39,725 nucleotides of DNA from Candidatus Woesearchaeota archaeon (GTDB lineage Archaea > Nanobdellota > Nanobdellia > Woesearchaeales > JAIPIC01), in NCBI GenBank assembly GCA_021734865.1, contig JAIPIC010000012.1, positions 1 through 39,725 on the forward strand. The letters are read 5' to 3'. Positions 6,666 through 30,112 of the stretch are shown here, piece after piece (within the stretch, counting starts at the first letter, position 1; every line of letters starts with the position of its first letter). Below the pieces are notes generated by a model, which did not search any database, had not been told where the DNA came from, and saw only the letters and a program-made list of their open reading frames with translations. Both the position numbers and the translations under genes were made by a program.

Positions 6666-6842
6666 TTAAATATTGTTTATCCTTCTATCATATGTGGCTT
6701 CTTTTTCTTTATTAAAGTAGCAGGCGGGAAGTTCACCCCTTTTTCTGTGGTAATGCAAGCATTCACAGCATATCCCTTTTCTTGAACATTCATAAGTACA
6801 GTTACACATTGTCAGATTTTTGTCTTTGTTTTTGCAATCCAT
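6666..6842 (-). CDS. Small Cys-rich protein, DUF6485-like (58 aa; not in supplied ORF track)
   Basis: Manual translation: [58 protein letters not shown]; 8 Cys; start overlaps the end of the upstream DUF1461-like gene by 31 bp. Confidence 0.8.
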
Positions 6843-7378
6843 GAAATCCCTCCAATTATTAATGAAAATATTGATATTGAAATAGATATTATTAAATTTA
6901 ACTTAATGAAAAAATCCTGATCAAAGACTCTAACAATTTTGTCTGTTCTGGAATCCATTAGCCATAGGTCGTTTGTAAATATAAGTTTGTGGAAAAACAT
7001 CCAGAAAGACTCAAAATCAATAAGAATGAAAACCAATAAAACGCATAATGAAGCAAGAACAGATACTGATGGGATAATCATATTCTCAGGTGTATAACCT
7101 AAACATAGGACAAAGATTGATAACATCCAAATAATAAGTTGAATATAGTACAGATTTCTGACATCCTGCATATGCAACTTCTCCTTACTGTTATATTGTT
7201 CATTCTCTTGTAAGAGCATCAAGTAATCAAGAGTATCTTCAACATATTGGTCATCATATGTTAAATTTCTTAGAACGACTCGGTCACTTAAGATGATATT
7301 TAATGGAGTCAGAATTAAAAATAAAGAAATAAAAAAATAAAAAAAATTACTCTTCAGGATGTCCGGGAGAGATTTCAC
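6812..7378 (-). CDS. DUF1461-like integral membrane protein
   Basis: 188 aa, about 4 TM segments; [29 protein letters not shown] resembles the conserved DUF1461 signature; GTG start. Confidence 0.7.
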
Positions 7379-10300
7379 TGTGTTTTCTCATCATTAAGAA
7401 GATGATCACAACCAATATCAGGACAATAACAATACCTGAAATCCACAAGATTGGCAACTGTGGTATGGTGCTATCATCCTTACTATCGATGATTGGACAA
7501 GGTCTGAACTCACAATTTTTGTTAGGGTCTCTTGAGACATAAGAACCATCTTCACATTCCATTGTATCCTGAGCACAAACAACATCTCCTGGTGGTTGAG
7601 TATCAGGACAAGCTGGGAATTCACAGTTGTTATTAGGGTCTCTTACTACAACGGTTCCATCTGGACATGTTAGTGCATCTTCTGGGCATCCAGTTGGTTG
7701 GTCTCCATCTGAAGTGGATTCTTTTTCAGCGATTGCAAAATAGCTGAATCCTGGTGTCACAGCAGTGTAATACTCAGCTGTATCAGTACTCTCCTTATGT
7801 GCTGTCTGCAATTCAACCCACTCTGGATCAACCCATCTGTACATAGCAACCTGCTCTTTAGCCAGACCATTCTCTGACATCCAACTCTTATTGACTTTAA
7901 ATGTCAACGTGATATCTTCCATGTCTTCATTCTCAATGTTTGTCTTTGAGATTTCTATGAACTGATAATGGTTTCTCAAAGCTTTAGATGTAGACACAGT
8001 TGATCTCACTTGGAACTTGAATTCAACATCTGATCGACCATTCTTTGCTTTGAATGCCACTTTGGTCAGACCAAGAAGCTCTGCAGTTGTAGCCATCTCT
8101 TTGATATCACCAGCATTTATATTCTGGAATGACTTGCTTACCTCATTCTTGGATTGTGGGGCTGCACCGCCGCCGCCACCTCCTTTCATGATCAATGGTA
8201 AGCCTCCGGTATCATCATCAGTATCTTCCTCACAATCAGTAGGACAGTTTGCGTGAGATTCACCATCATCACAAACTCCATTACCACATGTGCAGTCAGC
8301 TGCACAGTTCCAATAGTATTGCTCATCAGGACCGCATGTTCCGTCACCACAGACATCTCCAGTCTCATCTGTTCCAGCACCTGCACCATAATAAACAGAG
8401 AATCCAAGATCTGAAGGAACTGTAAATTCTGTGCATTCCCATACAGTATTATATGCAGGACCGGCTGTTGTCAGATTGGTAACATTTGTGCAGTATTGGT
8501 TTCCAACTTCAGAAGCATTGTTGCAGTGCCAAAGTTCAGAGACGTTTCCAGGAACACAGATATCAATTGAATCTGGGAGCAATTCATCCTTTATGTCCTC
8601 CCATTTATCATGGTCCATACCAACAAAACTGATGTTGTTGGTGGTGTTGACGATTATATCTCCCTCTCCAAGACTGGTCTTGTTTCCGTCGATAACACCT
8701 TTGACATCCATGCCTTTGAATTCCATGTTCCATGGATTGGAAGCATCAGAGTTGCCAATTTTCACGCTGATATTTGTCGTCTCATTAGAGTTCTTCTTGA
8801 TTGAGCCTTTGCCATTACATCCCTTTGCCTGGTATCCTGACCCAAAATTCCATTGAACTGATGTACCATTAAGGTTCTCGTCTCCTGCTGGTGCATCATA
8901 CCTAATATCAAAGACAGGTCTGCATTTGACACCACAAGAGGTCAGGCTTGTTTCAGTTGTGAAATTTAAGCATGCAGAAACTCCACATGGGTTGCCAGCT
9001 TTATCACATACTTTAAGCTTAAAATAATATGTTGTGCCATTAACTAAATCGAATCCAGTATGCCTGACATCTATTGGTCCATCGTGCCAAATTTTATATG
9101 CTGGAACGTCGGATTGTGTGATTCCAATATCAAGCAGAGTTGAATTTCTCCTGCTACAACTACTATCGTTTCCGTAGAACAGCAATGAACCATTTGCTGG
9201 TTCACTAGAGTCATATTTAACGAAAGCTGCATCAACAAATTCATCAACTTCATAGCTTTCTATCTTAGCTTGAGTGGTATCGTTCTCTACATTGAATTCA
9301 AAGAGATTGCCGCCGCATTCCGGTTTCATCTTACAGTCCGGATCATCACAGTTCTCAAAACCATCATTGTCTTCATCACCTGCAGTGTAACAGTTTTCTG
9401 CAAGCTTCTTGCCGCCTTTCTTCAGGTCCTTACAGTCAGGATCCTGATCAGGTGCAAGACCATCTCCATCCATGTCCTCAAAACCAAAGCAATTCTCAGT
9501 AAATGTGTCTGTTGCTCCTGGTGTATACTTCCCTGAAACTGCATCAATAGACCTACCTGAAGACAGATTCTTGGTAAGAGCATATAACCTAATGTCTTCA
9601 GTCATGTCCCATTTACCAGTTTCTAGGAGTGTTGACTTCTCAATCATTACGATTGGACCACCAACTTCCTGACACATTGCATTAACCTTTGTTGCAGCTT
9701 CAACATCCGTGCTTTCCCACTGTCGGTTGATACACTCGTATCTGTTGACCTTTTTCTTATCAGCCAATGTGGATTCAATCACTATCTTAAACTCAAACCC
9801 TATTTGTGCATTGTTGCTGGAATTACAACCTCCAGTTTCAACTCCATTGCTATCTATGTAAAATTCAGCTTTCAAAGGGCTTGTACCAGTCATGGTGTCT
9901 GCCGTAAGTGTCATGGCCTCTCGGTCTTCCAGGACACGCTTTCCATTACATGCTGCTGCTCCGGACATGCTAACCACATTTAATCCTACACCAAAGACAT
10001 CTCTTCCTTCCTTGACACCAAGACCACATATATCAGTGTGGTTACTTTTGTTTGTTTCTGGACAGTCATCCATACCAACAATCTCAGGTGGTGTGTCCAT
10101 CTCTTGGAACATCATACCAGCCCCTTTCGGCTCGCAGAATCCAGAAAATGCCGTACAACCAGTTAACTGGCTGCAATCAGTACCCAGAATGACAGAGTCA
10201 TACTCACATGTGGACACACATTTGTTCGATGCCCATTTGCATCCAAACTCAGATTGTGCATCACATTGGCTCTCATTTTGGAAAGTGTGACATTCATCCG

Positions 10301-13300
10301 CAATATTATTGCAGTATCCTCCTTTTCCAGAAAATGAATCTCGTACCCATATACAATTATCATCCGCATTACAATTTGATTGATCAAAATATGTGTCCTC
10401 ACAAAGGATTTCAATATACGTCGTGTTATCCCAGTTTATATCACACTCAGATCCAAATTTAGAATCCTCCCAAAGACATGATGGCTGTGATAAGCACGAT
10501 GATTGGTCATTGTCAAACTGCCAGCAGTCCTCACTTTTGGTAATATTTGGTTCGCACCATCCAGTTCTAAGTTCACAGAACGCATTTGATCCGCATGAAT
10601 TCTCGTCAAGACCAAAGCAGACCGGTTCACACCAACCTCCATTATCAGAGTTTATGTCCTGCATCCAAGTGCAGTATTGACTGTTCTTATTGCATTGCTG
10701 CTGAGTGGTCACACTGCTATTGTGGCATTTTGCGAACATGACATATTCACACACACCACCTTTTGGATTATTTTCATCATCCATCCATAAACAGTTGCCA
10801 GTACATTTTCCTTCTGGTTTTCCAAAGCAGACTTCTGCTTTTGTGAAATTCAAGTCACATCTACCGCCTGAAGTTGTGTAAGTACATGCACCACTCTGAT
10901 TATTACATTCATCAGAGCTGTCATCGTATTGCCAACAAACCTCAGATGGATGACCACACCAACTTCCTCCAAAAGGATCAGTTATCCACTTACAGTTCAT
11001 AGTTGATCCAGAATATGTTGGACTGGATTCGCAGTCTTGCTGACCATATCTCCAACATTCATGCATTAATCCACCTTCTCCACATTCTGGCGCGAAGAAA
11101 CAGTCTGGATCATCACAGTCTGCCATTTCGTCATTGTCGTCATCCTTTGCGTTGAAGCAAATCTCATCTGCGAAATTTGCTGGTTCGCAAAATAGTTCGT
11201 TCTCATTGTAAACACAGCTTCCTGCTTCTCCAAGACCATAATTTTCACATTCTGATTGAGAACATTTGAAACAGCTTTCTGAACAGGTCTTATCTGATTT
11301 ATCAATGCATGTTCCCTTGCTGTTATTGTCTAGGTTAGCTGCCCATTTACACTCTGCTGCACTCTCAAGACAGGCTATCTTAGTCTCTGGTTTTGGTGTC
11401 TGTGTATCGTCAGCTATACTATTGCAGGCAAAACAGTTGCTGTCACATCCTCCTGTAGTCTGTGCTGTTGTACTAAATTCACAGTAACCATATCCATTTG
11501 GAGCACTTACATCTGTCACAAACTCACAATTTGCTGGTGAAGTTTCACATGCATTCTGTGCATCAGTTGCCGACGCATATGCAGATGTATTTGTAGGTGT
11601 CTCACATGCCCAGCAGGACTTCATACAATTCCCTTCTCCAGCTTTCATTTCACACCAACATTCGCTCTGCAATACATCATCGCTTTCATTGGAAGGGGTG
11701 CCCATGTCATCACAATATTGATCGCAGGTCCATTCATAACCAGCTTTCTCACACAATGATTTAGTCTTTATGTCAAAGATATCTCCATTTGATCCGACTA
11801 CATCATCAAACTTGAAGACACATTTATCTCTATCCCATCTGCATGGCATATACCATGGACTTCCTGCTATCTGATCGCATAGATCTTCATTGGTGTAAGA
11901 GTTGTAATCTTCACAATATGTTGCCCCTTCTGGAGGCTCCTGCAAATTATCATAACAGGTCTTATCGACATAATCTGTTACGCACTGGCTTCCTCTCCAT
12001 TTACAGCAGTTGCTTAAAGATGCAAGTCCCATACACAGATTCTGGTCTGTTATATTTTCACACTGCACTGCTGAATCTGACTGTCCGACCGCATTGATGG
12101 TTATTGCTAATCCATCTCCACCTACTTCTGAGTTTGGATCGCATGAGCTTGTATCATTGTCATAACTGCATATGCTTACATCCTCACAGGCATCCTCATC
12201 TGCATCAAACAGCCAGCAACCAGGATTATCTCCTTTTGCCTGCTCAGCAAATCCTAAACGATTTCCAGATGGATCATTACAAGTGTTATCTCCCCAGTTA
12301 TACCAGCAATAAAATGTGTCCATACACTTTTTCTCTTTGCCATCAAACTGAGCGCAGAAACCATTTGCAGGTTCACAAAGACCATCTTCGTAAGAACAGT
12401 TTATTATACCGCTATAGGTATTTGCTGCGTCTTCACAAAGGGTTTCGTTACCATCAAATGCCCAACAAGCTAACTCTGAACAATAATCTCCGCTGTCTAC
12501 CCAGACACAGTCAGCATTATCTGTACTGCTGTCACATGCTGTCTGATTGTCCATGTCCCAACATCTGACTTCTTCACACCAGCCCCATGTATCTGCTCTC
12601 CAGTTGCAACTACCGCTTGTATCACACTCATTCTGGTCCAGTTCCCAGCAGCCTTTCTCATAGCAATAATCATAGGTATCATCCCAAACACAATCCACGC
12701 TGTCGGATGTGCTTTCACAGTCTGTCTGTGTAAAGTAGTCCCAACAGCCATCTTCTTTGCACCAGCCACCATCAGTATTCCAGACACATGACCTATCGAG
12801 TGTAGTATTTAAACTTGCGCAGCCAGTTGAGTCTGATGCCTCCCAGCAACCTCTCTCTTCACACCAGCTACCCCAAGATTCATCAACCCATCTGCAAGAA
12901 TCGTTTGCTGCTTCACAAGAAGACTCATCTTTGTTCCAGCAGCTACCATCATTCTCACACCAACCCCAGGATTCATCCCAGTAGCATTTGCTATCATCAG
13001 AACAGCTACTTTCATCCATGTTGTTCCAACAACCTTTTTCAAAGCAAAATTGTCCATTTGCATCCCATGTACATTTTGTTGTAGAATTGCAACCTGATTC
13101 ATTGGTATAATCCCAACATCCTTTCTCATAACAGTAATCCCAGTTTTCATCCCATAGGCATGTGTTATGTGAACTACATTCAGTTTGCGTGTTATAGTTA
13201 GAGCATCCTAGATCATAGCACCAGCCCCAGTCGTCCCATACACATCCTGTAACTGATGTACAGTCAGACTCTGATTCTTTTGACCAACAGCCTTTTTTAT

Positions 13301-16250
13301 AACAATACTGGTAATCATCGCTCCATTCGCAACCACCAAATCTTGTATCAGTAGTACATTCTCCTTTTGTAGAATAATCCCAGCAACCCTGTTCGTAACA
13401 CTGTCCTTCGTCAGGGTCTGAACTTAAAGTATCATCTTCCCATGCACAATCCATATATGCATGCTGTTCACATTCTGTTTTAGAATCACTAAAGGTCCAA
13501 CATCCTTCTCTATGGCAAAATCCTCCATTCTCAATGCCATATCCGTAATCGATAGTTTCATTATCCCAAGCACAACCAGTCACTGCAGTGCAATCATCCT
13601 GATTGTAATATTCCCAACAATCTGTTTCCTTGCAGTTCCCGTTCTCTTCCCAACCACATTGTGATTCCTGAGCTAGGCAGTTACCCTGAGTCTGATAACT
13701 CCAACAACCTTGTTTGTTGCACTCCCCAGTCCATTTACAGCCTTCACTGATACATGTGTCCTGGTCATCGTTATAATTCCAACATTCAAGTGAGTAATCA
13801 CCTTCACATCTTGTTTCCCATGAACAGCTTGAATCACCTGAACAACTTGATTCACTTTTATAATTCCAGCATTCCCTCCGTTGACATTGTCCAGCCTGGT
13901 TCCATACACAATCTTCATCAGCATGTTGGGCGCAGGTGTCATTCTGCCAATAATTCCAGCATCCACGCTCGTTGCATGATTGAGAATTTGTATCCCAGAA
14001 GCAATTCAAGGTGCTATTGTACTGATTACAAGTAGATTCAGTATTAAATGACCAGCATTGCAAATTTTTGCAATTGTTCCATTGGTCATTCCACTGGCAC
14101 TGGGAATTTTGATCACATTGCTGTTTGTTATTATAGTTCCAGCACCCCTCTTCCTGGCACCAGCCCCATTCCTCCCAAGTGCAACTAGCGTCAGAACAGG
14201 AAGTCTGATCACTGTGGCTCCAACAACCTTCTTCAAAACATTGTCCTGTTGTCAGCCATTCACATTTGGATGATCCATCACATTCTGTAGGATTGTTGTA
14301 ATCCCAGCATCCTGGCCTCTCACACCAGTGACTATTTTGCCACCAGCATCCATTGTCTGAATTATCCTCACAAGTTGTCTGATCTCCATAATCACCACAC
14401 ATTACCGTGCATCCAATAGGGTGCTCATCATCAACGGGCCAACCGCATTCACAGCCTCCTCTCCAGCGACACTCTACGCCATTATCATCATGGGATTCAC
14501 AAGAAGTCTCATCGTCCCATGCCCAGCAACCTTGTGTGAAACAATATCCTGTTGCACCACTACTTCCACTTGAACTACCTGAACTGGTGCTTCCATCTGT
14601 AGTCGTATAATTCTCCCAACCACATCCAAGTGAGCTATCTAAGCAGGCCTCTTCACTCTCATAATTCCAACAGCCTTCCTCTTCACACCAACCATTATCA
14701 TTTGTCCATCTGCATTCTTTGTCAGTCAATGAAGAATTCAGATTATTACATTCAGATTGTGACTCAGCATTCCAACAGCCCTTATCTTCACACTGATGCA
14801 TTTCTTCTCTCCAAGTGCAAGTGTCATTGTTGGCTAAGCAACTAGTTTCATCGTAATCCCAACATCCTTGCTGCATACATTCTCCCCATGCACATTCAGA
14901 GTCCGCTATACAAGTTTCGCTATCTTGATAACCCCAACATTGACCTCCTGGTCCAGAAGATCCGCCGCCGCCACTTGAAGTAGGGGTTGGCCCTGATTGG
15001 ATAGGTTCCTCATTAATATAGAAAGTTCCTTCAAATGATGGTTGTTGGAATCCATCCCAGTTTGGTATGCACATTGGATCACCATCATCAGCAGTCAAAT
15101 CCCAAACACAATTTCCAGTACCAGCATATTCAGCATCACATTCTGTTTGATCCAAGTAATGGCAGGCATCGCAGATTTCATCTTCTGAGATATAACTGCA
15201 TCCAACCTGTTGTCCACACGCAGAAGAATCTTCATCAAATTCCTCACAGCTCAAGCACGCATCCTCAGCAGATTCATTATAATATGTGCACCCACGCCTG
15301 TAACAAGTACTTTCATCCCCATCAAAATCTTCACAGCTTCCTAGTTCTCCACCACCATCTCCATCTGGAGGTGTGTTTTTCATCATTGCAGGATGGCATT
15401 TTGCCTCCCATTGGCAATTTAAGTTAAGATTAAAAATATCACCTGTACAAGCTGTTTCATTATAGTCTGTGTACATATAACAGTCAGCAAAGAAACATTC
15501 CTGATCATCTTCGTTCCAATAACAACCTGCTTGACTACAAGTTGAGTTAGTTTCATATTCCCAGCATGCTCCTGATTCTTGACACCATCCGCCCATATTG
15601 GACCATTCGTCTGTGAACCATTCACAACCAGATTCAGCACTGCACTCATCTTCATCCTCGTAGTTCCAGCATCCGACTTCTTCACAATAGTCATGTGATT
15701 TCCACATACAACCATCAGCACCATCACATGATGAGCTGGACTCATGCTCCCAGCACCCACTCATTTCCATACAAGTCCTACCATCCCATAAGCATCCATT
15801 TTCTTCATGGGCTTCACAAGAATTCTTATCATCATAGTTCCAACAGTTAATCTCACCACAATATGGTGTCCCTTCCCAGAAGCACCCATCTGAATCTTCA
15901 CAATCAGATCTTTCATTATAGTTCCAGCATGCCATATTATCTTCGCACCATCCTGAAGATCCTTCAGCTTTCCACTGGCAATTTAGTCCCATATCAGATG
16001 CACCGGAGTTACATTCTTCCTGTCCCAAGAAATCCCAACAACTGATTTCATGACAGTACTTTCCCCAGAAGTCCCAGCGACAATTGGGCTGGTCAAGACA
16101 ACCTTCCTTATTGTTGTCAAAGTCCCAACAATCATATCCATACCCATATGTTTCATCAACATTAAAATCTGGCTCTTGAGCCTGTTCTGCATACATAACA
16201 AATGCCAAAGCACATAGAATTATAACAGCGATAAGTGTATTGTTTTTCAT
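7347..16250 (-). CDS. Giant Cys/Trp-rich repeat surface protein (2967 aa) with signal peptide, about 50 CW-type repeats, MopE-like acidic motifs, PGF-pre-PGF-like domain, C-terminal TM
   Basis: Uninterrupted 8.9-kb ORF; SD-like GAGGTG 8 nt before ATG; hydrophobic N-terminus (IAVIILCALAFVMYAEQA); repeated CWxYxxxxxCxxxxxCxWxxxxxxCxExG units; TM ILWISGIVIVLILVVIIFLMM. Confidence 0.93.
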   Translation of the reverse strand: MKNNTLIAVIILCALAFVMYAEQAQEPDFNVDETYGYGYDCWDFDNNKEGCLDQPNCRWDFWGKYCHEISCWDFLGQEECNSGASDMGLNCQWKAEGSSGWCEDNMACWNYNERSDCEDSDGCFWEGTPYCGEINCWNYDDKNSCEAHEENGCLWDGRTCMEMSGCWEHESSSSCDGADGCMWKSHDYCEEVGCWNYEDEDECSAESGCEWFTDEWSNMGGWCQESGACWEYETNSTCSQAGCYWNEDDQECFFADCYMYTDYNETACTGDIFNLNLNCQWEAKCHPAMMKNTPPDGDGGGELGSCEDFDGDESTCYRRGCTYYNESAEDACLSCEEFDEDSSACGQQVGCSYISEDEICDACHYLDQTECDAEYAGTGNCVWDLTADDGDPMCIPNWDGFQQPSFEGTFYINEEPIQSGPTPTSSGGGGSSGPGGQCWGYQDSETCIADSECAWGECMQQGCWDYDETSCLANNDTCTWREEMHQCEDKGCWNAESQSECNNLNSSLTDKECRWTNDNGWCEEEGCWNYESEEACLDSSLGCGWENYTTTDGSTSSGSSSGSSGATGYCFTQGCWAWDDETSCESHDDNGVECRWRGGCECGWPVDDEHPIGCTVMCGDYGDQTTCEDNSDNGCWWQNSHWCERPGCWDYNNPTECDGSSKCEWLTTGQCFEEGCWSHSDQTSCSDASCTWEEWGWCQEEGCWNYNNKQQCDQNSQCQWNDQWNNCKNLQCWSFNTESTCNQYNSTLNCFWDTNSQSCNERGCWNYWQNDTCAQHADEDCVWNQAGQCQRRECWNYKSESSCSGDSSCSWETRCEGDYSLECWNYNDDQDTCISEGCKWTGECNKQGCWSYQTQGNCLAQESQCGWEENGNCKETDCWEYYNQDDCTAVTGCAWDNETIDYGYGIENGGFCHREGCWTFSDSKTECEQHAYMDCAWEDDTLSSDPDEGQCYEQGCWDYSTKGECTTDTRFGGCEWSDDYQYCYKKGCWSKESESDCTSVTGCVWDDWGWCYDLGCSNYNTQTECSSHNTCLWDENWDYCYEKGCWDYTNESGCNSTTKCTWDANGQFCFEKGCWNNMDESSCSDDSKCYWDESWGWCENDGSCWNKDESSCEAANDSCRWVDESWGSWCEERGCWEASDSTGCASLNTTLDRSCVWNTDGGWCKEDGCWDYFTQTDCESTSDSVDCVWDDTYDYCYEKGCWELDQNECDTSGSCNWRADTWGWCEEVRCWDMDNQTACDSSTDNADCVWVDSGDYCSELACWAFDGNETLCEDAANTYSGIINCSYEDGLCEPANGFCAQFDGKEKKCMDTFYCWYNWGDNTCNDPSGNRLGFAEQAKGDNPGCWLFDADEDACEDVSICSYDNDTSSCDPNSEVGGDGLAITINAVGQSDSAVQCENITDQNLCMGLASLSNCCKWRGSQCVTDYVDKTCYDNLQEPPEGATYCEDYNSYTNEDLCDQIAGSPWYMPCRWDRDKCVFKFDDVVGSNGDIFDIKTKSLCEKAGYEWTCDQYCDDMGTPSNESDDVLQSECWCEMKAGEGNCMKSCWACETPTNTSAYASATDAQNACETSPANCEFVTDVSAPNGYGYCEFSTTAQTTGGCDSNCFACNSIADDTQTPKPETKIACLESAAECKWAANLDNNSKGTCIDKSDKTCSESCFKCSQSECENYGLGEAGSCVYNENELFCEPANFADEICFNAKDDDNDEMADCDDPDCFFAPECGEGGLMHECWRYGQQDCESSPTYSGSTMNCKWITDPFGGSWCGHPSEVCWQYDDSSDECNNQSGACTYTTSGGRCDLNFTKAEVCFGKPEGKCTGNCLWMDDENNPKGGVCEYVMFAKCHNSSVTTQQQCNKNSQYCTWMQDINSDNGGWCEPVCFGLDENSCGSNAFCELRTGWCEPNITKSEDCWQFDNDQSSCLSQPSCLWEDSKFGSECDINWDNTTYIEILCEDTYFDQSNCNADDNCIWVRDSFSGKGGYCNNIADECHTFQNESQCDAQSEFGCKWASNKCVSTCEYDSVILGTDCSQLTGCTAFSGFCEPKGAGMMFQEMDTPPEIVGMDDCPETNKSNHTDICGLGVKEGRDVFGVGLNVVSMSGAAACNGKRVLEDREAMTLTADTMTGTSPLKAEFYIDSNGVETGGCNSSNNAQIGFEFKIVIESTLADKKKVNRYECINRQWESTDVEAATKVNAMCQEVGGPIVMIEKSTLLETGKWDMTEDIRLYALTKNLSSGRSIDAVSGKYTPGATDTFTENCFGFEDMDGDGLAPDQDPDCKDLKKGGKKLAENCYTAGDEDNDGFENCDDPDCKMKPECGGNLFEFNVENDTTQAKIESYEVDEFVDAAFVKYDSSEPANGSLLFYGNDSSCSRRNSTLLDIGITQSDVPAYKIWHDGPIDVRHTGFDLVNGTTYYFKLKVCDKAGNPCGVSACLNFTTETSLTSCGVKCRPVFDIRYDAPAGDENLNGTSVQWNFGSGYQAKGCNGKGSIKKNSNETTNISVKIGNSDASNPWNMEFKGMDVKGVIDGNKTSLGEGDIIVNTTNNISFVGMDHDKWEDIKDELLPDSIDICVPGNVSELWHCNNASEVGNQYCTNVTNLTTAGPAYNTVWECTEFTVPSDLGFSVYYGAGAGTDETGDVCGDGTCGPDEQYYWNCAADCTCGNGVCDDGESHANCPTDCEEDTDDDTGGLPLIMKGGGGGGAAPQSKNEVSKSFQNINAGDIKEMATTAELLGLTKVAFKAKNGRSDVEFKFQVRSTVSTSKALRNHYQFIEISKTNIENEDMEDITLTFKVNKSWMSENGLAKEQVAMYRWVDPEWVELQTAHKESTDTAEYYTAVTPGFSYFAIAEKESTSDGDQPTGCPEDALTCPDGTVVVRDPNNNCEFPACPDTQPPGDVVCAQDTMECEDGSYVSRDPNKNCEFRPCPIIDSKDDSTIPQLPILWISGIVIVLILVVIIFLMMRKHSEISPGHPEE
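10130..11065 (-). repeat. Second block of about 8 CW-type repeats, more divergent
   Basis: ECWRYGQQDCESSPTYSGSTMNCKWITDPFGGSWCGH; CWQFDNDQSSCLSQPSCLWEDSKFGSECD; CHTFQNESQCDAQSEFGCKWASNKC. Confidence 0.8.
12140..16130 (-). repeat. Main block of about 40 tandem protein-level CW repeats (4 Cys each)
   Basis: Manual alignment of units, e.g. CWNYEDEDECSAESGCEWFTDEWSNMGGWCQES, CWDYTNESGCNSTTKCTWDANGQFCFEKG, CWDYFTQTDCESTSDSVDCVWDDTYDYCYEKG. Confidence 0.9.
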
Positions 16251-16518: not shown

Positions 16519-17685
16519 TTACAAGAATTCCTTAGCTAAATAGCATGAACCTACAACTAGAATACTACCAGTAAATGTCTTTCTGGCTATTTTCACAGCT
16601 GTTTTGGGATCTTCAGCAATGATTATCTTTTCGTTGAAAAATTTTGATAATTCATACGGCTGCATGGATCGAGGTGCATTAGGACGTGTAAGAATTATTC
16701 TGCTTGTCTTATCCTGTATCAGAGCAGCCATCTCTTTAATTGGCTTGTCCTTAAGTACACCAAATACGATAGGTATATCATCTGGCATCTCTTTTAATAT
16801 CACTCTCAATCCAGCCGGGTTGTGCGCACAATCTATGATTAGATCGTCGACTTTTTGAAATCTCCCTGGCCATTTTGTATTCTTCAACGCATCTTGAATA
16901 ATCTTTTTTTTTGATTTTTTGGATTTATCATTGTAACTCGAATCGTAACTCAAATTAAGAATCTGATCCGCTGCCTTTATTGCCAAAGCAGCATTCATCT
17001 TCTGAAATTCTCCCTTCAAGGACAACTCAAATTCTTTGGTCATGTTATTTGCATCTTTTATAACCATCAATTTGGACCCTTTACTGCTACAATGCTGCTT
17101 AATAACCTCCAATGCTTCTGCCTGTGCTCCTGTGATACAAGGTATTTCTTTTTTGATTATGGCAGCTTTCTCCTCTGCAATCTGTTTTATTGTTGTTCCG
17201 AGGTATTCTGTATGATCAAGCGACACATTAGTTATAATTGTTAAAATTGGATTAACTATATTTGTCGAATCCAGTCTGCCACCCATTCCGGTCTCAATGA
17301 TAGCGTAATCCACTTTTTCCTCTAAGAAATACAATAATGCTATAGCTGTCAGTATTTCAAACACACTCTCGTCTGCTCTTTTGGAAAAAACAGTATCAAA
17401 TAATTGGTTAAATCGCTCCTTAGAGATTGCAACATTGTCAACTTGGAACTGTTCATATACCTCATGGAGATATGGAGAAGTGAACAACCCTACCTTAAAT
17501 CCACTTTCGATGAGTATCTGATTTAAGAACGCACATGTCGAACCTTTTCCGTTTGTCCCAGCGACATGGATGATCTTGAGCTTATCTTGAGGATTATCTA
17601 ATTTCAGGCAGATATTCCTAATTCTTTCTAGGCCAAGCTTTCTTTTATCCCAACCTATTTTTTTCAACGTTTCCAGTGGATCCAT
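16519..17685 (-). CDS. folC: Folylpolyglutamate/dihydrofolate synthase family (Mur ligase superfamily)
   Basis: 388 aa; HVAGTNGKGSTCAFLNQIL, FTSPYLHEVYEQFQVDN, ETGMGGRLDSTNIV, DCAHNPAGLRVIL. Confidence 0.93.
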   Translation of the reverse strand: MDPLETLKKIGWDKRKLGLERIRNICLKLDNPQDKLKIIHVAGTNGKGSTCAFLNQILIESGFKVGLFTSPYLHEVYEQFQVDNVAISKERFNQLFDTVFSKRADESVFEILTAIALLYFLEEKVDYAIIETGMGGRLDSTNIVNPILTIITNVSLDHTEYLGTTIKQIAEEKAAIIKKEIPCITGAQAEALEVIKQHCSSKGSKLMVIKDANNMTKEFELSLKGEFQKMNAALAIKAADQILNLSYDSSYNDKSKKSKKKIIQDALKNTKWPGRFQKVDDLIIDCAHNPAGLRVILKEMPDDIPIVFGVLKDKPIKEMAALIQDKTSRIILTRPNAPRSMQPYELSKFFNEKIIIAEDPKTAVKIARKTFTGSILVVGSCYLAKEFL

Positions 17686-17775
17686 CTGTTTTTCCTTGTC
17701 CCAGTATGCTTAATGCCCATAAAAAAATTCTGCTTGGAATAGTACTATTTGAAATAGTCCTATTCTGCAACATTA

Positions 17776-20259: not shown

Positions 20260-23115
20260 ATGAAAGTTCTGAGTATAAAAGGAGCAAGGCAGCACAATCT
20301 AAAGAATATAAATATTGATATTCCAAGAGATAAGCTTGTTGTTGTAACTGGTCTCTCAGGATCCGGCAAATCAACTCTTGCTTTTGATACTATATATGCT
20401 GAAGGACAGAGGCGTTATGTCGAGAGTCTATCTGCATACGCTCGTCAGTTTTTAGGTTTGATGAATAAACCTGATGTTGATTCTATTGAAGGGTTATCAC
20501 CAGCAATATCCATTGATCAGAAAACAACTTCTAAGAATCCAAGATCGACAGTTGGTACTATAACTGAAATCTATGATTATCTTAGGCTTTTATTCGCTCG
20601 TGTTGGAACTCCATTCTGTCCTGATCATAATATTAAGATAACAAAACAATCCCCTCAGGCTATATCTGAGCAGATTGCATTAGATTTCAAAAATGATGTA
20701 ATCATACTTTCACCTGTTGTCAGGAAGAAGAAAGGTACATATGAGCAACTCTTGATTGACCTTAATAAAAATGGGTACATGCGAGTCAGAATCGATGGTG
20801 TTATCCACCGAACAGATGAAAAGGTGAACATGGATAGGTATAAGATGCATGATATTGATGTTGTTATTGACAGAGTCACAATCAATGATGAGCAAAGATT
20901 AAGCGAAGCAGTTGAAAGTGCCATCAAATACTCTAAAGGCCTTGTAATTGTTCAGGAAGGACTTGAAAAACAAGGTACAAAACAGCATAATATTAAAGCA
21001 AACATTAAGGATAATACTTTCGAAAAGATATACTCTTCGAATATGTCATGTCCTGAATGCGGCATGGTATTTGAAGAGTTACAACCAAGGATGTTTTCAT
21101 TTAACAGCCCATTTGGGGCTTGTGAAGAATGTTCAGGGCTTGGCATAAAGATGGATTTTGATCCTGACTTAATTATCCCAGATAAGAACAAATCGATTGC
21201 TGATGGTGCAATTTCAGTCTACAGAAATGCAATTGATGGTTGGAGAGGAAAATACCTTGGGGCTGTTGCAAAACATCATGGTTTTTCTGTTTTTACTCCT
21301 ATTAAAGAATTTACTAAAGAACAATATGATGCATTGATGTATGGTTCTGATGATCAGATCAAGTTCAATATCTCTATGAAGAATGGTGATGCGCAATGGT
21401 CTCATAAGGGCACCTGGGAAGGTCTGATTCCACAATCAGAAAGGCTTTATCAGCAGACTGAGTCAGATTACAGGCGAAAAGAACTTGAGAAATTCATGAG
21501 AGTATCGGCATGTCCTTCCTGCGATGGGAATCGGCTTAAGAGAAAAGTTCTGTCTGTAAAGGTAAGCGATAAGTCAATAATTGAAGTCACTAATATGTCA
21601 ATAAGGGATTCGTTAGAATTTTTTGAGAATTTGAAGTTAAACTCAAAAAACGCAGAAATTGCTAAGCAGATTTTAAAAGAGATCAGATCAAGGCTTGAAT
21701 TCCTTGAAAAGGTGGGGTTGAATTATCTAACTCTTTCTAGAGGATCTGCAACTCTTTCAGGAGGAGAGGCTCAAAGGATTCGCCTTGCGACCCAGATAGG
21801 ATCAAATCTGGTGGGTGTTCTTTACATACTGGATGAGCCATCTATTGGGCTGCATCAGAGAAATAATCACAAGCTGATATCCACACTTAAGCGTCTTAGG
21901 GATCTAGGCAATACTTTGATCGTTGTGGAGCACGATGAGGATACGATAAGGAGTGCTGATTATGTAATAGATATTGGTCCTGGCGCAGGAATCCACGGTG
22001 GTAAGATTATTGCGCATGGAACACCTGAAGAGATTGAACAAAATCCTGAATCACTTACAGGAAAATACATGAGCGGGCAATTATCTATTGATGTTCCAAA
22101 ATCGCGCAGGAAACCAAAGAAATTCATGAATATTATCGGTTGCAAAGAACATAATCTCAAGAACATTGATGTCAAGATACCTTTAAGTGTTTTGACTCTG
22201 ATAACCGGCGTATCTGGTTCAGGAAAATCCACTTTGATTTATGATATTATGTACAAAGCTCTGATGAAAAAACTGCATGGTTCTAAGATGCGGCCAGGCA
22301 AACACAATCATATTGAAAACGGAAAGATCGACAAAGTTATCGTTATCGACCAAAGCCCTATAGGCAAAACACCAAGGTCTAATCCCGCTACTTATACAAA
22401 AGTATTTGATGAAATAAGAAAACTGTTTGCCAGTACACAGGAGGCTAAAGTCAGAGGGTATAGTCCTGGTCGATTCTCTTTTAATGTTAAAGGCGGAAGA
22501 TGCGAAGCTTGTCAAGGGGACGGACTGATCAAGATAGAGATGAATTTCCTTCCGGATGTTTTCGTCCAGTGTGAGGAATGCAAGGGACAGAGATATAATA
22601 AAGAAACACTTGCAGTCAAATATAAGGGTAAATCAATCTCTGATATTCTGAATATGAGTGTTGAAGAAGCCCTTGAATTATTCAAGAATATTCCAATTCT
22701 CAGAAGGAAGCTTAATCTTTTAAACAGAGTTGGGTTAGAATATATCAAACTTGGTCAGTCTTCCATTACTCTATCCGGGGGAGAAGCTCAGAGAATCAAG
22801 CTAACCAGAGAGTTATCTAAGAAGGATACTGGAAAAACACTCTATCTTCTTGATGAACCCACAACGGGGTTGCATTTCCATGATGTCAAAAAGCTCATCA
22901 AGGTACTTAATGATCTTGTCGATAAGGGAAACAGTGTTGTTGTTATCGAACATAATCTTGATGTAGTAAAATCAGCTGATCATGTGATTGATCTCGGTCC
23001 TGAAGGTGGTGATGAAGGAGGGTACATTGTAGCTGAAGGAACTCCTGAAGAGATTGCTAAAGAAAAAAAGAGCTACACTGGCCAATATATTAAGGGGCTT
23101 CTGATTAATGATTAA
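20260..23115 (+). CDS. uvrA: UvrABC system protein A
   Basis: 951 aa; [65 protein letters not shown]; two ABC signature motifs ([33 protein letters not shown]); zinc motifs CPECGMVF...CEECSGLG and CEACQGDG...CEECKGQRY. Confidence 0.99.
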
Positions 23116-23195
23116 TACATCTGTCATTGTATTGTCATTGCTGATTTTTATTAATATTCAAAAAATATTTATATGCATATCCCCATTTTAATGGG

Positions 23196-23957
23196 ATGTC
23201 TGATATTAGAATAGTTGTTTACTCTATTTTTGGGTTAGGTTTTGGTGCTTATATATTCTGGAAAGGTTTTGGCATGAATAAAGAGATTCGTGTTATAAAG
23301 AACACACCAACTTCAAAGATTCGTAGCATGGCAATGGGCCGGGTTGAGATTTATGGAGAAATAATTCCAGCTAAAGGTAAAATCTTTAAATCTCCATTTT
23401 CAGACGAGAAATGTGTTTGGTGTAAATGGATGGTCGAAGAATATAGATCTTCAGGAAAGAGCGGAAGATGGATAACGATCGATAGTGGTATTCTTCAGGA
23501 TCATTTCTATGTAAAGGATAATACTGGCTATGTATTAGTAGACCCATTTGGGGCAAATATCGATATTCAAAAAGATAATGAGTACCAATCAGGTGCTTTT
23601 CGAGGTGCGATTCCAGGAACTGCAAAAGTTTTTCTTGATAAGAATAGTATCAAAACAAAGGGCTTATTTGGGTTCAAGAGACCTCTTCGGCTTAGAGAAT
23701 ATTATCTGACTCCAGGTGATAAGATTTACGTGATGGGTTATGCAGGGGACAACCCACATATCGAAGATGGTTCAAGCCAAGAGAACGCTCAGGACATTAT
23801 GATACAGAAAGGTAATTCATTTTTTTATATTTCTGACAGTCCAGAAAAAGAAGTATTAAAAAAAATGTTCTGGAAATCCTTCTTATCTTTATATGGTGGT
23901 GCAGCTTTGATTATTGTGTGTCTGTTTATAATATTTGCTTATTTCAATATATTATGA
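23196..23957 (+). CDS. GIDE-domain-like membrane protein
   Basis: 253 aa with N- and C-terminal TM; SKIRSMAMGRVEIYGEIIPA...SPFSDEKCVWCKWMVEEY...GYVLVDPFGANID and YYLTPGDKIYVMGYA typical of GIDE-domain proteins; next to lemA. Confidence 0.75.
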   Translation: MSDIRIVVYSIFGLGFGAYIFWKGFGMNKEIRVIKNTPTSKIRSMAMGRVEIYGEIIPAKGKIFKSPFSDEKCVWCKWMVEEYRSSGKSGRWITIDSGILQDHFYVKDNTGYVLVDPFGANIDIQKDNEYQSGAFRGAIPGTAKVFLDKNSIKTKGLFGFKRPLRLREYYLTPGDKIYVMGYAGDNPHIEDGSSQENAQDIMIQKGNSFFYISDSPEKEVLKKMFWKSFLSLYGGAALIIVCLFIIFAYFNIL

Positions 23958-24056
23958 TTTTAGTATTTTATAGAGCAATAGTAAGGTTTATTATATAGAA
24001 GGTATATGAAAATTTTTAATGAAGTATTTTAATATTTGAGAATAGGAGGACTCAAA

Positions 24057-24626
24057 ATGGCAATAGGAATGATTATAGTTATTGGTGTGGGCATTTTATT
24101 GTTCGTAATGATATTCGCAGGTTATTTCATAGGGATGTACAATAGTCTTATCAGGTTAAAGAATGATATTGACAAAGCGTGGTCTAATATTGATGTATTA
24201 TTAAAACAGCGATCCGATGAATTACCAAAATTAATTGCATCAGTGAAAGGTTATATGAAACATGAGAAAGGGGTACTTGAAGGAGTGACCAAAGCAAGAA
24301 CAGCATTTATGAACGCAAGTAGTATGTCACAAAAAGCTGAAGCGGATGGGATGATCTCAGGGGCATTGAAAAGCTTGTTTGCAGTAGCTGAGAATTATCC
24401 TACTCTTAAGGCAAATGACAATTTTATGCAACTTCAGCAAAGGATCAGCGGTCTTGAGAATGAACTTGCTGACAGAAGAGAATTCTATAACGATGCTACT
24501 AATAACTTTAACATAAGAATAGAGTCATTCCCAGATATGATAATTGCCAATATGATGTCTTTGCAGAAGAAGGATATGTTTAAGGTTACAGAAGCTGAAA
24601 AACAGGATGTTAAGGTTGAGTTTTAA
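24057..24626 (+). CDS. lemA: LemA family protein
   Basis: YNSLIRLKNDIDKAWSNIDVLLKQRSDELPKLIASVKGYMKHEKGVLEGVTKART...AVAENYPTLKANDNFMQLQQRISGLENELADRREFYNDATNNFN; SD GGAGG at 24045-24049 favours this ATG over the upstream TTG at 24036. Confidence 0.95.
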   Translation: MAIGMIIVIGVGILLFVMIFAGYFIGMYNSLIRLKNDIDKAWSNIDVLLKQRSDELPKLIASVKGYMKHEKGVLEGVTKARTAFMNASSMSQKAEADGMISGALKSLFAVAENYPTLKANDNFMQLQQRISGLENELADRREFYNDATNNFNIRIESFPDMIIANMMSLQKKDMFKVTEAEKQDVKVEF

Positions 24627-24707
24627 ACTCTTAAACCTAAAAATCAGTTCCTTGTCACTAAGAACATTAGAAAAAAGTGCAGGATTAATAAAGACTGGGA
24701 AGAAGAA

Positions 24708-26261
24708 ATGATTGATCTGGCAAATATTCCTTCTCTGCCTGGATGTTATCTTTTTAAAGACAGTAGTAGTATTATTTACATTGGTAAAGCCAAAAATCTG
24801 AAAAAACGGGTTAGCAGTTATTTTTCTAAGAAGCACGATATAAAGACTACTAAGCTAGTAGATTCTATTAGAAGCGTCAGCACTATTGTGACTGATAATG
24901 AAACTGAAGCACTTATTCTCGAGAATACCCTTATCAGGAGACACAAGCCAAAGTATAATGTGGATCTAAGGAATTCAGACAGATATGCTTACTTGTGTTT
25001 TTCTCAAGAGACTTTTCCAAGACTAATCGTATCAAGATCAAAAGAGGGTCTTGGCAAGCTTTATGGTCCGTTCACATCTGGACAAGAGAGGAACAATATA
25101 CAAAGGTTTCTTATCAGATCTTTGAAGTTGAGAACTTGTAATCGTATGCGAAAAAAGGGTTGTCTCAGACATCATATTCGACTTTGTGATGGTCCGTGCA
25201 TGGGATTGATTACAAAAACCGCATATAATGAAAAGATCAAGGTAGCTAGGTTAATTCTTAGTGGCAAGATTGAAGATGTCATCTCTAGACTGAAGAAAGA
25301 CATGGAAATACAGTCCCAACATCAGAATTATGAGAAGGCTTTAGAATTCCGGAATCTAATTTCTGCATTAAATTCAATCTCAGAAAAACAAAAAGTTGAG
25401 CGCAATAGGAAATATAATGAAGATCTAGTCAATTTTAAAGTTGTGGGTGGTTATGTCTATCTGCTTGTGTTTAAAATTTATAAAGGCACTTTAAATGGTA
25501 TGCATGAATTTTCATTTCAATATTATGATGATTTTCTGAGGCATTTCTTCATCCTGTATTATAATACACATCCAAAGCCAAAAGAACTTATTGTACCTGG
25601 ATACAACAAAAGTATATTGGATGAAAGTCAGTGGGATGATTTAAGGTTGTTTTTGAAATCTATTGGGGTCGTGCTTGTTGCTCCAAAGATCGGGGAAAAG
25701 AAGAAGTTACTCGAACTAGCTGAGAAAAACATTGATATCGTTTTTTTTGGAGACGTTTCAAAATTAGATGCTTTGCGAATTGCTATCAAGCTAGAGGAAA
25801 TGCCAATTGTTATTGAGTGCTTTGATATCTCACATCTTTCTGGCACATCGGTCGTAGGTTCAATGGTGCAGTTCAGGAACGCAAAACCTGACAAATCCAA
25901 TTACAGACGATTCAAGATTCGTTCTGTTGAAGGTATCGATGACTACGCAGCAATAGCAGAGGTCGTAAGACGAAGATATAAGAGATTAATCAGTGAGAAT
26001 CAAAACCTACCAAATTTAATAATTATTGATGGGGGCAGAGGGCAATTGAATGCTGCCCTAGAAGAGCTAAGAAGGATAGGACTAAGAATACCGATCATCA
26101 GCATCGCTAAGCGTGAAGAAGAATTATATCTGCCTGGTCTGAGTATTCCCCTACGTTTGAAGCAGGACAGCAAAGATCTTCTTTTTGTGCGAGAAATCAG
26201 GGATGAAGCTCATAGGTTTGCGATAAAGTATAATAGGTTGTTGCGGAAAAAGAATTTATGA
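24708..26261 (+). CDS. uvrC: UvrABC system protein C, truncated form lacking C-terminal HhH region
   Basis: 517 aa; GIY-YIG domain (LPGCYLFKDSSSIIYIGKAKNLKKRVSSYF), UVR-like helix, RNase H-like endonuclease domain (ECFDISHLSGTSVVGSMVQF, NLIIIDGGRGQLNAALEEL); ends ...RDEAHRFAIKYNRLLRKKNL. Confidence 0.96.
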   Translation: MIDLANIPSLPGCYLFKDSSSIIYIGKAKNLKKRVSSYFSKKHDIKTTKLVDSIRSVSTIVTDNETEALILENTLIRRHKPKYNVDLRNSDRYAYLCFSQETFPRLIVSRSKEGLGKLYGPFTSGQERNNIQRFLIRSLKLRTCNRMRKKGCLRHHIRLCDGPCMGLITKTAYNEKIKVARLILSGKIEDVISRLKKDMEIQSQHQNYEKALEFRNLISALNSISEKQKVERNRKYNEDLVNFKVVGGYVYLLVFKIYKGTLNGMHEFSFQYYDDFLRHFFILYYNTHPKPKELIVPGYNKSILDESQWDDLRLFLKSIGVVLVAPKIGEKKKLLELAEKNIDIVFFGDVSKLDALRIAIKLEEMPIVIECFDISHLSGTSVVGSMVQFRNAKPDKSNYRRFKIRSVEGIDDYAAIAEVVRRRYKRLISENQNLPNLIIIDGGRGQLNAALEELRRIGLRIPIISIAKREEELYLPGLSIPLRLKQDSKDLLFVREIRDEAHRFAIKYNRLLRKKNL

Positions 26262-26284
26262 GATGAACATTTCCCTTGATATCA

Positions 26285-26420
26285 CTATTTTTTTCTGCTC
26301 AGCATAAGTACATGCGAGCCTGCATTGGCCTCAATCAATTCTCTTGGCTGCCATATTACTCTGTCATCTTCTATACTTAATCCCGCTCCTTCCACATCCT
26401 TTTCAAAAATATCTCCTTGG
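26285..26420 (-). pseudogene. C-terminal remnant of an unidentified protein, no start codon
   Basis: Manual minus-strand translation ...QGDIFEKDVEGAGLSIEDDRVIWQPRELIEANAGSHVLMLSRKK*; open but without credible N-terminus. Confidence 0.4.
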
Positions 26421-26591
26421 ACTTTTGAGATTGAATTTGAGATACAGGATTACAAGATGCTGAATATGATACTTAAAGATATGAAAAACCAATTTGGAGA
26501 CATAATTAAACGAACAGAAATCACATTAATATCTGAACAATTCAAAGGTGAATTAAATATCCTATCCACTGGACACACGTTAATTTTATAA
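26418..26591 (+). pseudogene. Possible C-terminal remnant of an Lrp/AsnC-like regulator
   Basis: WTFEIEFEIQDYKMLNMILKDMKNQFGDIIKRTEITLISEQFKGELNIL resembles the C-terminal effector-domain region of Lrp/AsnC proteins; N-terminal HTH absent. Confidence 0.45.
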
Positions 26592-26614
26592 TAAATTCTT
26601 CTTTCTAATGATTT

Positions 26615-29600
26615 ATGGATTTCAAATTAACATCACCTTTCAAACCTAAAGGGTCACAACCTAATGCAATTGAAAAACTTGTTGATGGACTTAAGACCAG
26701 GCAACAGCATCAGACACTATTAGGTGTGACAGGGTCCGGCAAAAGTCTCGATTATAATGAGATGTTATTGATTAGAACCGAAAATAATGAACTACATAAG
26801 GTTAAGATAGGGAAATATGTTGACAACAATCTAAATAAACCAAAAAAAAAAGGTCAAACCATATATCAAAAAACACATGGAAACAAAATTTTGTCCTTTA
26901 ATCCAAAAACAAATGAAATTAGTGAACAGGAAATACAAGAAGTATCCAAACATCGTGAACAGCAAATATTTGAAATAACTTTAGATGACAATTATTCAAT
27001 AAAAGTTACAAAAGACCATAATTGCTATAAATTGGTTAATTGTAGGATGGAATTATGCACAACATCTAAACTGAAAATTGGAGATTATGTTCCTACATCC
27101 AAGGAAATTTTAATAGCTACAAGCAATCCACAGCATATCAATTTACTGGATTCTAATAAAAAAAATAAGGTCAATATTGGTTGCCTTGTTGACAAACATA
27201 ACAAAAAAAAGATAATTGCATTTCTAAAAAAGAATTATACTGCGTACAATTGGAAATTAAAACAAATAGAAAGAAAAACAAAAGAAAGGGGTTTAACTGT
27301 ATCTCAGGTTAATCAATTATTGCCTGAATTAGGTCTATCATTAGAGGAAGTAAATAATAAAATAAAAGTCATTACCAAAGGAATCGATGTAACCCCTCCC
27401 TTAATAGAAATAAGTCCAAATTTTTTGTATTTTTGCGGTTTATATGTGGCTGAAGGACACAATACTGGTGATTATGTGCTTATTTCCAATTCAAATAAAA
27501 AACTGCAAAAAAAATGCATGGCTTTTATTAAATCAATAGGATTAAACTACAAACGAAGAAACAAAAATGATGTGGTCTATTATTCTAAATTAATTGCAAA
27601 TTTCATGGGCATTTTTGGTTTGAATGCACAAAACAAGAGAATTCCTAATTTCATTTATAACCTTTCCAACCAGCAATTGTCAATCTTTGTCCAAGCAATT
27701 TTTGATGGAGATGGATGGGTTGAGAAAAATTCGGTTCACACTTTATCTACCTCTAAACAATTAATATATTCTGTAAAAGAGCTATTGCTAAGATTTGGTA
27801 TTACGTCAAGAATTAGTATAAAAAAAAACGTATATAATTCAACAATCAAAAAGTATTATCAACTAAACATATCTGGAAGTCATTGCCTTACATTATTTAA
27901 GGAAAATATCTCCTTTTCAATAAATGCAAAAAAGAATAAACTTTCAAAGGTAATTAAAAAAAATGCAAATACAAATGTTGACTTGATACCTAATTGCCAT
28001 TATTTTTTCAAATCAATAAGGATTCAGCATGGTCTCTTTCAGAAAGACATAGCTAAGATATGTTTATGTGCAAGATCACACATATCATTAATAGAATCTG
28101 GTAAAAGACAACCATCAAAAGTTATTTTTTCAAGGATTGCCAAATGGCTAATAAGCAAAAATCCAAAACATTACCCTCTTCTGAATTTGTTGAATTTCAA
28201 TTTTCGTAAGATTATTAAAATTAGAAAAACAAAAAGTACAACTGGTTTCGTATATGATATTTCTGTTAAGGGAAATGAGAATTTTGCAGCTGGAAACGGA
28301 AATATTTTTGTTCATAATACTTTTACGATGGCCAATATCATTGCAAGTCTTAACATACCAAGTTTGATACTGGCTCACAATAAAACTCTCGCAGCACAAC
28401 TTTACTCTGAATTTAAGGATTTCTTTCCTGAAAACCGGGTTGAATACTTTGTATCATACTATGACTATTATCAACCTGAATCATATCTTCCACAAAAGGA
28501 TCTGTATATTGAGAAAGATTCACAGATTAATCCTAAGATTGAACAGATGAGACTGGCTGCTACTGCTTCAGCACTCTCAAGGAGAGACGTAATCGTTGTC
28601 GCTTCTGTTTCCTGTATCTACAATACTGGCAATCCGTCCTATTTCCAGGGTTTGGGTTTTGAGATCAAGTCAGGAGAGACAATGAGACGGAATGATCTCC
28701 TCAATAAGCTTGTATCAATCCAGTTTGAACGCAATGATATGGAACTGATGCCTGGTCGATTCAGGGTGAAAGGAGACACTATCGACTTCATCCCGGGATA
28801 TTTCAATAATATCATCCGGATCGAGATGTTTGGTGACGATATCGAGCGGATTTCGGAGATTGATAAGGTAACTGGCTCTGTCAAGGAGGAGTTAAAGTAT
28901 TTCTATGTTTATCCAGCCAAGCACTTTGTGATGGGAGATGAGGAGAGAGAAAAGGGTTTGAAGTCGATCCAGAGGGAGCTTGATACCTATTTGCCTAAAC
29001 TTGATATGATACAGGCACACAGACTGAAGCAGCGGACCATGTATGACATTGAAATGATAAGGGAAACTGGTTCCTGTAAGGGTATTGAGAATTATTCCAG
29101 TCACTTTGATGGCCGAAAGTCAGGTGAGAAACCATACTGTTTTATGGATTACCTTCCTAAAGATTTTGTATTTTTTATTGATGAAAGCCATCAGACCATT
29201 CCACAGGTCAGAGGAATGTATAATGGCGATAGGGCACGCAAGAAAACTCTGATTGATTATGGTTTTAGGCTGCCATCAGCACTTGATAACAGGCCTTTGA
29301 TGTTTAATGAATTTGAGAAATATCTGAATAGTGTTGTTTTTGTCAGTGCTACACCAGCTGATTATGAAAAGAAAAAATCAAGTGTTATTGTTGAGCAGAT
29401 TATCAGACCAACCGGACTGATTGACCCAAATGTTGAGGTAAGAGGTATTAAAGGTCAAGTTGATGATCTTATATCTGAGATTAATTCAACCATTAGGAAG
29501 AATAACAGGGTTCTTGTTACCACGCTGACTAAGAAACTTGCAGAAGAACTTACTGAATATTTTGCCGAGCATAGTATTAAGACAAGATATCTCCATTCTG

Positions 29601-30112
29601 AAATAGATACACTGGAAAGGACGGAGATTATAAGGGAACTGCGACTCGGTGAATTCGATGTTCTGGTAGGTATAAATCTACTTAGAGAAGGATTGGATAT
29701 TCCTGAGGTTGGTCTTATTGGGATTTTGGATGCAGATAAAGAGGGATTTCTTCGAGATTCAAGAAGTCTTATTCAAATTATCGGAAGAGCTGCAAGAAAT
29801 ACTGAATCACGAGTAATTCTGTACGCTGATAAGATGACTGATTCAATGAAAACAGCTATTTATGAGACTAAGCGTCGTAGGAAGCTGCAACAGGAATACA
29901 ATAAGAAACATGGTATCACTCCAAAAACAATCCAGAAACCAGTTAAAGAAAAGGTTGTAGATATTAAGGACACAAAACATATTCCTAAAAAAGATATACC
30001 CAATATGATTATCGAGTTAGAAAAAGAGATGGCAGATTGCGCTGACAATCTTGATTTTGAAAAAGCTATTATGCTCAGGGATAGGATCAGAAAGATGAAA
30101 CTCAGATCCTAA
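26615..30112 (+). CDS. uvrB: UvrABC system protein B, interrupted by an intein
   Basis: Exteins [22 protein letters not shown]...LLGVTGSGK / [61 protein letters not shown]...; UVR motif near C-terminus. Confidence 0.98.
   Translation: [1165 protein letters not shown]
26744..28318 (+). mobile_element. In-frame intein (525 aa) with LAGLIDADG-type homing endonuclease region, inserted in UvrB Walker A (GSGK^T)
   Basis: Starts with Ser1 ([12 protein letters not shown]), block B-like [10 protein letters not shown], dodecapeptide-like LYVAEGHN and IFDGDGW, block F-like [25 protein letters not shown], +1 Thr; removing it gives GVTGSGK-TFTMAN. Confidence 0.95.

Follow-up and report, generated by a model that had tools for sequence, protein, structure and literature searches.

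The window, by which we mean the entire 39,725-nucleotide stretch of DNA from a small-celled Candidatus Woesearchaeota archaeon analysed here, encodes a giant cysteine-rich protein built from tandem Cys/Trp (CW) units. Relatives in the class preserve the order of its units, which marks it as a genuine and conserved, though uncharacterised, surface fibre and not as noise from sequencing. As originally predicted, its sequence supports a secreted, membrane-anchored and disulfide-stabilised surface protein, given a signal-like segment, a transmembrane helix, a PGF-pre-PGF domain and the paired loss of cysteines. The best explanation, to which we assign a probability of about 0.6, is a single-pass, C-terminally anchored, constant and disulfide-locked fibre for cell contact or coat formation; the structural part of this reading is well supported, and we infer the contact or coat role. 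A literature search of partial coverage found no earlier description of a CW-array protein.

The gene begins with ATG and runs for 2967 codons without interruption on the minus strand, bearing out the single ORF read from the sequence at the outset. Its parts are as follows.

7347..16250, minus strand: complete giant ORF, a type I membrane-anchored surface protein of 2967 aa, with collinear unit order in the independent MAGs L061 and L062
16185..16250, minus strand: signal-peptide-like segment, aa 1 to ~22, MKNNTLIAVIILCALAFVMYA, recognised by eye in the sequence rather than by a predictor
15069..16130, minus strand: N-terminal CW block, aa 41-394, 11 units of which the last three are degenerate; its register matches units 0-7 of L061 and L062
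14940..15068, minus strand: G/S/P low-complexity linker, aa 395-437, delimited by eye
12375..14939, minus strand: main regular CW array, aa 438-1292, ~28 units of the form C-W-x-Y..C..C-x-W..C, from the pattern scan and the four-unit model
10134..12356, minus strand: divergent Cys-unit block, aa 1299-2039, ~45-66% identical to L061 and L062 across the block
8376..10160, minus strand: conserved C-terminal module of ~590 aa with no Pfam entry, mainly beta-sheet with FN3/Ig-like parts, common to full-length relatives
7728..8126, minus strand: PGF-pre-PGF domain (TIGR04213), aa 2709-2841, E=4.9e-19, 68.8 bits against a cut-off of 28
7389..7457, minus strand: C-terminal transmembrane helix, followed by a ~13-aa tail, located by eye

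Since the array is N-terminal and the transmembrane helix C-terminal, the array lies distal to the membrane. The stalk originally proposed does not fit this layout: the units start almost at the mature N-terminus and lift no known head, and it is the conserved module that is membrane-proximal. PGF-pre-PGF domains are typical of archaeal surface proteins. The C-terminal PGF-CTERM signal that marks archaeosortase substrates was not found in the giant protein, which gave no NCBIfam match to it and whose C-terminus lacks PGF. The protein carries 49 N-glycosylation sequons, compared with 31 in shuffles, and is acidic, as had been noted for the context of the units (551 D+E versus 167 K+R). It contains 127 Trp and 275 Cys, well above the roughly 200 cysteines first estimated. 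The host genome had also been taken to be small; at 2.01 Mb (99 contigs) and 87% completeness it is large for the class.

A loose regular expression finds 54 units, or 52 if internal cysteines are disallowed, from position 16130 down to 10134 (aa 41-2039), in agreement with the approximately 50 units predicted for 10130-16130. Their consensus is approximately G-C-W-x-Y-x(4-7)-C-x(3-12)-C-x-W-x(3-14)-C-x-E-x, and 34 matches to a strict unit pattern were counted, compared with a mean of 0.26 and a maximum of 2 in 500 residue shuffles. The supposed arrangement of about 40 consecutive units plus about 8 more is corrected: the units fall into an N-terminal block of 8-11, a very regular block of ~28 and a divergent block of ~14.

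When the arrays are aligned end to end, the majority of the window's 52 units pair sequentially with the 46 units of the nearest relative, L061 (Candidatus Woesearchaeota archaeon J072), and they pair in the same manner with the units of L062. With Cys and Trp excluded, orthologous units are 39% identical, as against 21% for other pairs, and the unit-order score lies far above that of shuffled orders (z=21 for L061 and z=17 for L062). Inside a group of proteins with 20-26 units, spanning families of the order and the class, z was 7-12; comparing the long-array clade with shorter arrays gave a weak order signal or none (z 0.1-6). The gene has no tandem DNA repeats, trivial ones aside. An assembly artefact, raised alongside the original prediction as what might undo it, is rejected, because independent MAGs encode a collinear protein and tandem DNA repeats are lacking; the same observations count against an antigen varied by recombination. 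Unlike many repeat adhesins, which expand and homogenise, the CW units hold their order and identity across families.

Cysteines of the family vary in pairs. Four pairs in the C-terminal module (alignment columns 38/54, 287/308, 665/678 and 509/513) are perfectly co-present or co-absent in 27 sequences, and 172 of 173 segments between canonical units hold an even number of cysteines, both counts being inflated by shared ancestry. Three clear degenerate units were identified by a scan of residual segments, the HMM-based scan having aligned complete units only; in all three (L062 aa 961; L066 aa 188 and 675) C1 and C3 are gone together while C2 and C4 are kept. The simplest reading of this joint loss, which at unit level comes from n=3, is that the disulfides of the CW unit would be C1-C3 and C2-C4, and each mini-domain is probably held by two such bonds.

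Structure prediction of three to five units had been suggested with the original prediction, and a four-unit segment (12948-13292) modelled with AlphaFold2 on 42 aligned runs reached a pLDDT of 93.4; the pTM of 0.63 leaves the geometry between units uncertain. The model predicts two helices per unit, a short one at C-W-x-Y and another around C2, and a hairpin that spans C-x-W to C4. Foldseek aligned single units with semaphorins and plexins at 1.6-2.5 Å over 30-36 residues (probability at most 0.80, E ~1 or worse). The best single-unit PDB match was Drosophila semaphorin 2b (probability 0.80, 1.6 Å over 30 residues). As Foldseek gave no residue ranges, that these matches fall on the PSI domain is our inference. 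Among viral structures (BFVD), a single unit matches mimivirus-type proteins at 0.5-0.6 Å over 29 residues with a probability of 0.99; the giant-virus proteins concerned are mimivirus R327 and Megavirus VETF-like proteins. A CW-like mini-module may be widespread on cell surfaces. A search of the PDB with the single-unit sequence profile gave no match.

A profile of the unit, proposed earlier for searching archaeal proteomes, was run on 378 genomes of the class and matched in 32, mostly in one giant ORF apiece. The C-terminal module is more broadly distributed, with a count, tallied by eye from tables, of ~60 of the 378 genomes (~16%) at E<1e-30. Nearly all full-length module carriers also have CW-like units. 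Together the ~590-aa module and the CW array define a recognisable family in about one-sixth of the class genomes sampled. The plan of units, ~590-aa module, PGF-pre-PGF domain and one transmembrane helix recurs in relatives from many of the class's families. Between full-length relatives the module is 26-60% identical; no convincing Pfam match was found in the 27 of 27 members examined, and a fold search returned generic Ig/FN3 beta-sandwich matches only. Named relatives come from Woesearchaeota, Pacearchaeota, Aenigmatarchaeota, Nanohalarchaeota and unclassified archaeal MAGs, according to a pattern-based scan that used a subset of the modules, the alignment of all 27 being too diverse. No relatives of the giant protein were found in phage and viral collections.

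Across 50 module proteins the number of CW units ranges from 3 to 52; among those at the low end are L085, which is truncated, and an 8970-aa protein of another plan. The latter, from G258:C3 (L110, L111, L124), carries the module in mid-protein with only three CW-like units. The three proteins with 43-52 units (the window, L061 and L062) group in a single clade with full support, and the long array thus probably arose by one expansion specific to that lineage. In L063 a run of N is present and the C-terminus is probably mis-scaffolded. A split-anchor form was observed in L074, L079, L112, L113, L114 and L115, where the giant ORF ends right after ..W-G-C and a second ORF starts 0-4 nt on, with its own signal peptide, an S/G-rich linker and (where complete) a transmembrane helix. 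The five such members included in the tree form one supported clade, and the arrangement resembles a gene fission that split off the anchor.

The search for oxidative-folding genes advised earlier gave a mixed answer. VKOR was not found in the window's own genome (87% complete), which does encode an exported lipoprotein, L098 (G000:C23:26415-27641), with two thioredoxin/GILT-like halves (SQCPFG and SHCPFG); no other candidate for an exported thiol oxidoreductase was seen there. In L062 a DsbA-like thiol oxidoreductase gene (FSDFECPYC; 17034-17696, plus strand) lies directly downstream of the giant gene and is a possible dedicated folding partner of its product, and G255 carries VKOR ~0.4 kb away from a module gene. 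Genomes with the module are not enriched in VKOR (~27 of 60 versus 158 of 318 others, tallied by eye), and the evidence on oxidative folding is no more than suggestive. Apart from a small subgroup, no conserved operon or neighbours were found around the relatives' genes, and none hints at a role. Lit/DUF1461 proteins of bacteria are a lipoprotein acyl transferase family; a Lit/DUF1461-like membrane protein (6812-7378, minus strand; PF07314, E=6e-19) shares 32 nt with the giant gene at its 3' end and is not conserved beside the relatives' giant genes. Elsewhere in the window, a UvrB gene with an in-frame intein (26615-30112, plus strand; Intein_splicing, LAGLIDADG_3) closes a cluster of uvrA, GIDE-like, LemA, uvrC and uvrB (20260-30112).

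These observations allow us to propose how the protein might work. After export, each ~30-residue CW unit would fold on its own into two short helices and a beta-hairpin around a core made of the tryptophan in C-x-W and the W/Y in C-W-x-Y, and would be locked by its C1-C3 and C2-C4 disulfides as a minimal PSI-like cystine module. Some 52 modules in fixed order would produce a long, acidic, protease-resistant distal rod, the rod shape being our extrapolation, on a membrane-proximal base formed by the conserved beta-rich module, the PGF-pre-PGF domain and the single transmembrane helix. Such a fibre may serve steady contact with a host or partner cell, or coat formation, rather than catalysis.

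The same layout could serve an envelope scaffold of the S-layer or sheath type, in which laterally packed modules would build a protective lattice and have no part in cell contact. The single conserved copy per genome, the membrane anchor, the PGF-pre-PGF domain and the many sequons all suit a scaffold, yet the patchy occurrence in ~16% of class genomes is unlike an essential S-layer, and array length ranges from a few units to 52; we regard this reading as rather unlikely. The cysteine and tryptophan density, which is extreme, had also suggested a fibre binding metal, heme or electrons through a Cys/Trp ladder. Against this, there is a single CxxCH in 2967 aa, the cysteines vary in pairs, with C1 and C3 lost jointly while C2 and C4 stay, and the fold matches are disulfide modules, making such a fibre highly improbable.

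A variable coat or antigen of ciliate type, homologous to Paramecium surface antigens and used to evade immunity or predators, draws on the closest sequence profile to the array, Paramecium_SA (PF01508), and on Tetrahymena, whose cells are coated by Cys-rich GPI-anchored proteins of this kind (PMC4136848). The profile matches 12 of 42 four-unit runs (best E=2.4e-5) and, in a scan of the genome, exceeds its cut-off in two places (26.7 and 22.1 bits); these matches are confined to the giant ORF. The whole protein nevertheless stays borderline, below the Pfam cut-off (E=0.002, 19 bits versus 21.2). Antigenic variation is further disfavoured by the presence of usually one gene per genome and no multigene family, by units whose order and individual character are preserved from one species to the next, by a gene that lacks tandem DNA repeats suited to recombination and by a transmembrane rather than a GPI anchor, and we consider it improbable.

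We favour the constant, anchored contact or coat fibre. Woese- and Pacearchaeota are abundant, and most have not been cultured. They are thought to lead a life attached to other cells, and to our knowledge few of their surface molecules have been described. A host-contact role would be consistent with these lifestyle ideas and, by analogy, with the giant surface proteins of Nanohaloarchaeota. More tentatively, the protein may represent a contact or coat fibre of Woesearchaeales, Pacearchaeales and related archaea in which minimal PSI-like modules stand in fixed order on a new base module, a prokaryotic counterpart of PSI domains and ciliate antigens by descent or convergence. If so, it would be a candidate for governing how these uncultured archaea make contact with other cells, and the family supplies a testable disulfide topology and an imaging marker for them.

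Searched with the whole protein, Pfam gave no match above a cut-off. Membership of the PGF-pre-PGF family is confined to aa 2709-2841, and the remainder lies outside that family. Like the SPEARE and other giant surface proteins of Nanohaloarchaeota (PMC6642349, PMC10266531), it is giant, mostly extracytoplasmic, C-terminally anchored by a transmembrane helix and encoded by a DPANN-type archaeon. Unlike them, it has Cys units in place of Ig/FN3 tandems and a tail of ~13 aa after the helix, and Pfam found no laminin-G, protease or cytoplasmic ATPase domain; SPEARE membership is not supported, given the short tail and the absence of ATPase-like or adhesion-domain matches. The best PDB sequence-profile match, which was not significant (E=0.053), was the C-terminal domain of a Trypanosoma brucei VSG (2JWG). 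This fold has four conserved cysteines and a conserved aromatic residue (PMC12226131) and resembles the CW unit as a small surface module of such composition, but occurs in one or two copies per protein and is GPI-anchored. The Paramecium_SA antigens are likewise very large surface proteins, anchored at the C-terminus, whose extracellular units are rich in Cys and arranged in tandem; they are multigene and switchable, whereas the archaeal gene is single-copy, with conserved unit order and an unrelated C-terminal module.

The likeness to PSI/plexin-type repeats first noted from the sequence may hold for the fold of the predicted unit and for its disulfide logic; it does not extend to membership of the Pfam PSI family (PF01437), which appeared in one of 42 four-unit runs at E=0.99 and was absent from the whole-protein Pfam search. 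In the crystal structure of RON the PSI bonds run C1-C4, C2-C8, C3-C6 and C5-C7 along the chain (PMC3405059). The CW unit has a C..C..C-x-W..C core with similar spacing, together with predicted helices and a hairpin, and the C1-C3 co-loss seen in three units would correspond to the C1-C4/C3-C6 core of PSI. It differs in having ~30 aa and four cysteines instead of ~50 aa and eight, and in forming a tandem array of ~50; the full PSI cysteine set is absent. The CW unit would keep the C1-C4 and C3-C6 core of PSI and drop C2-C8 and C5-C7. The array supplies an archaeal test case of whether the PSI-like modules of animals, ciliates, trypanosomes and giant viruses reflect common ancestry or repeated origin.
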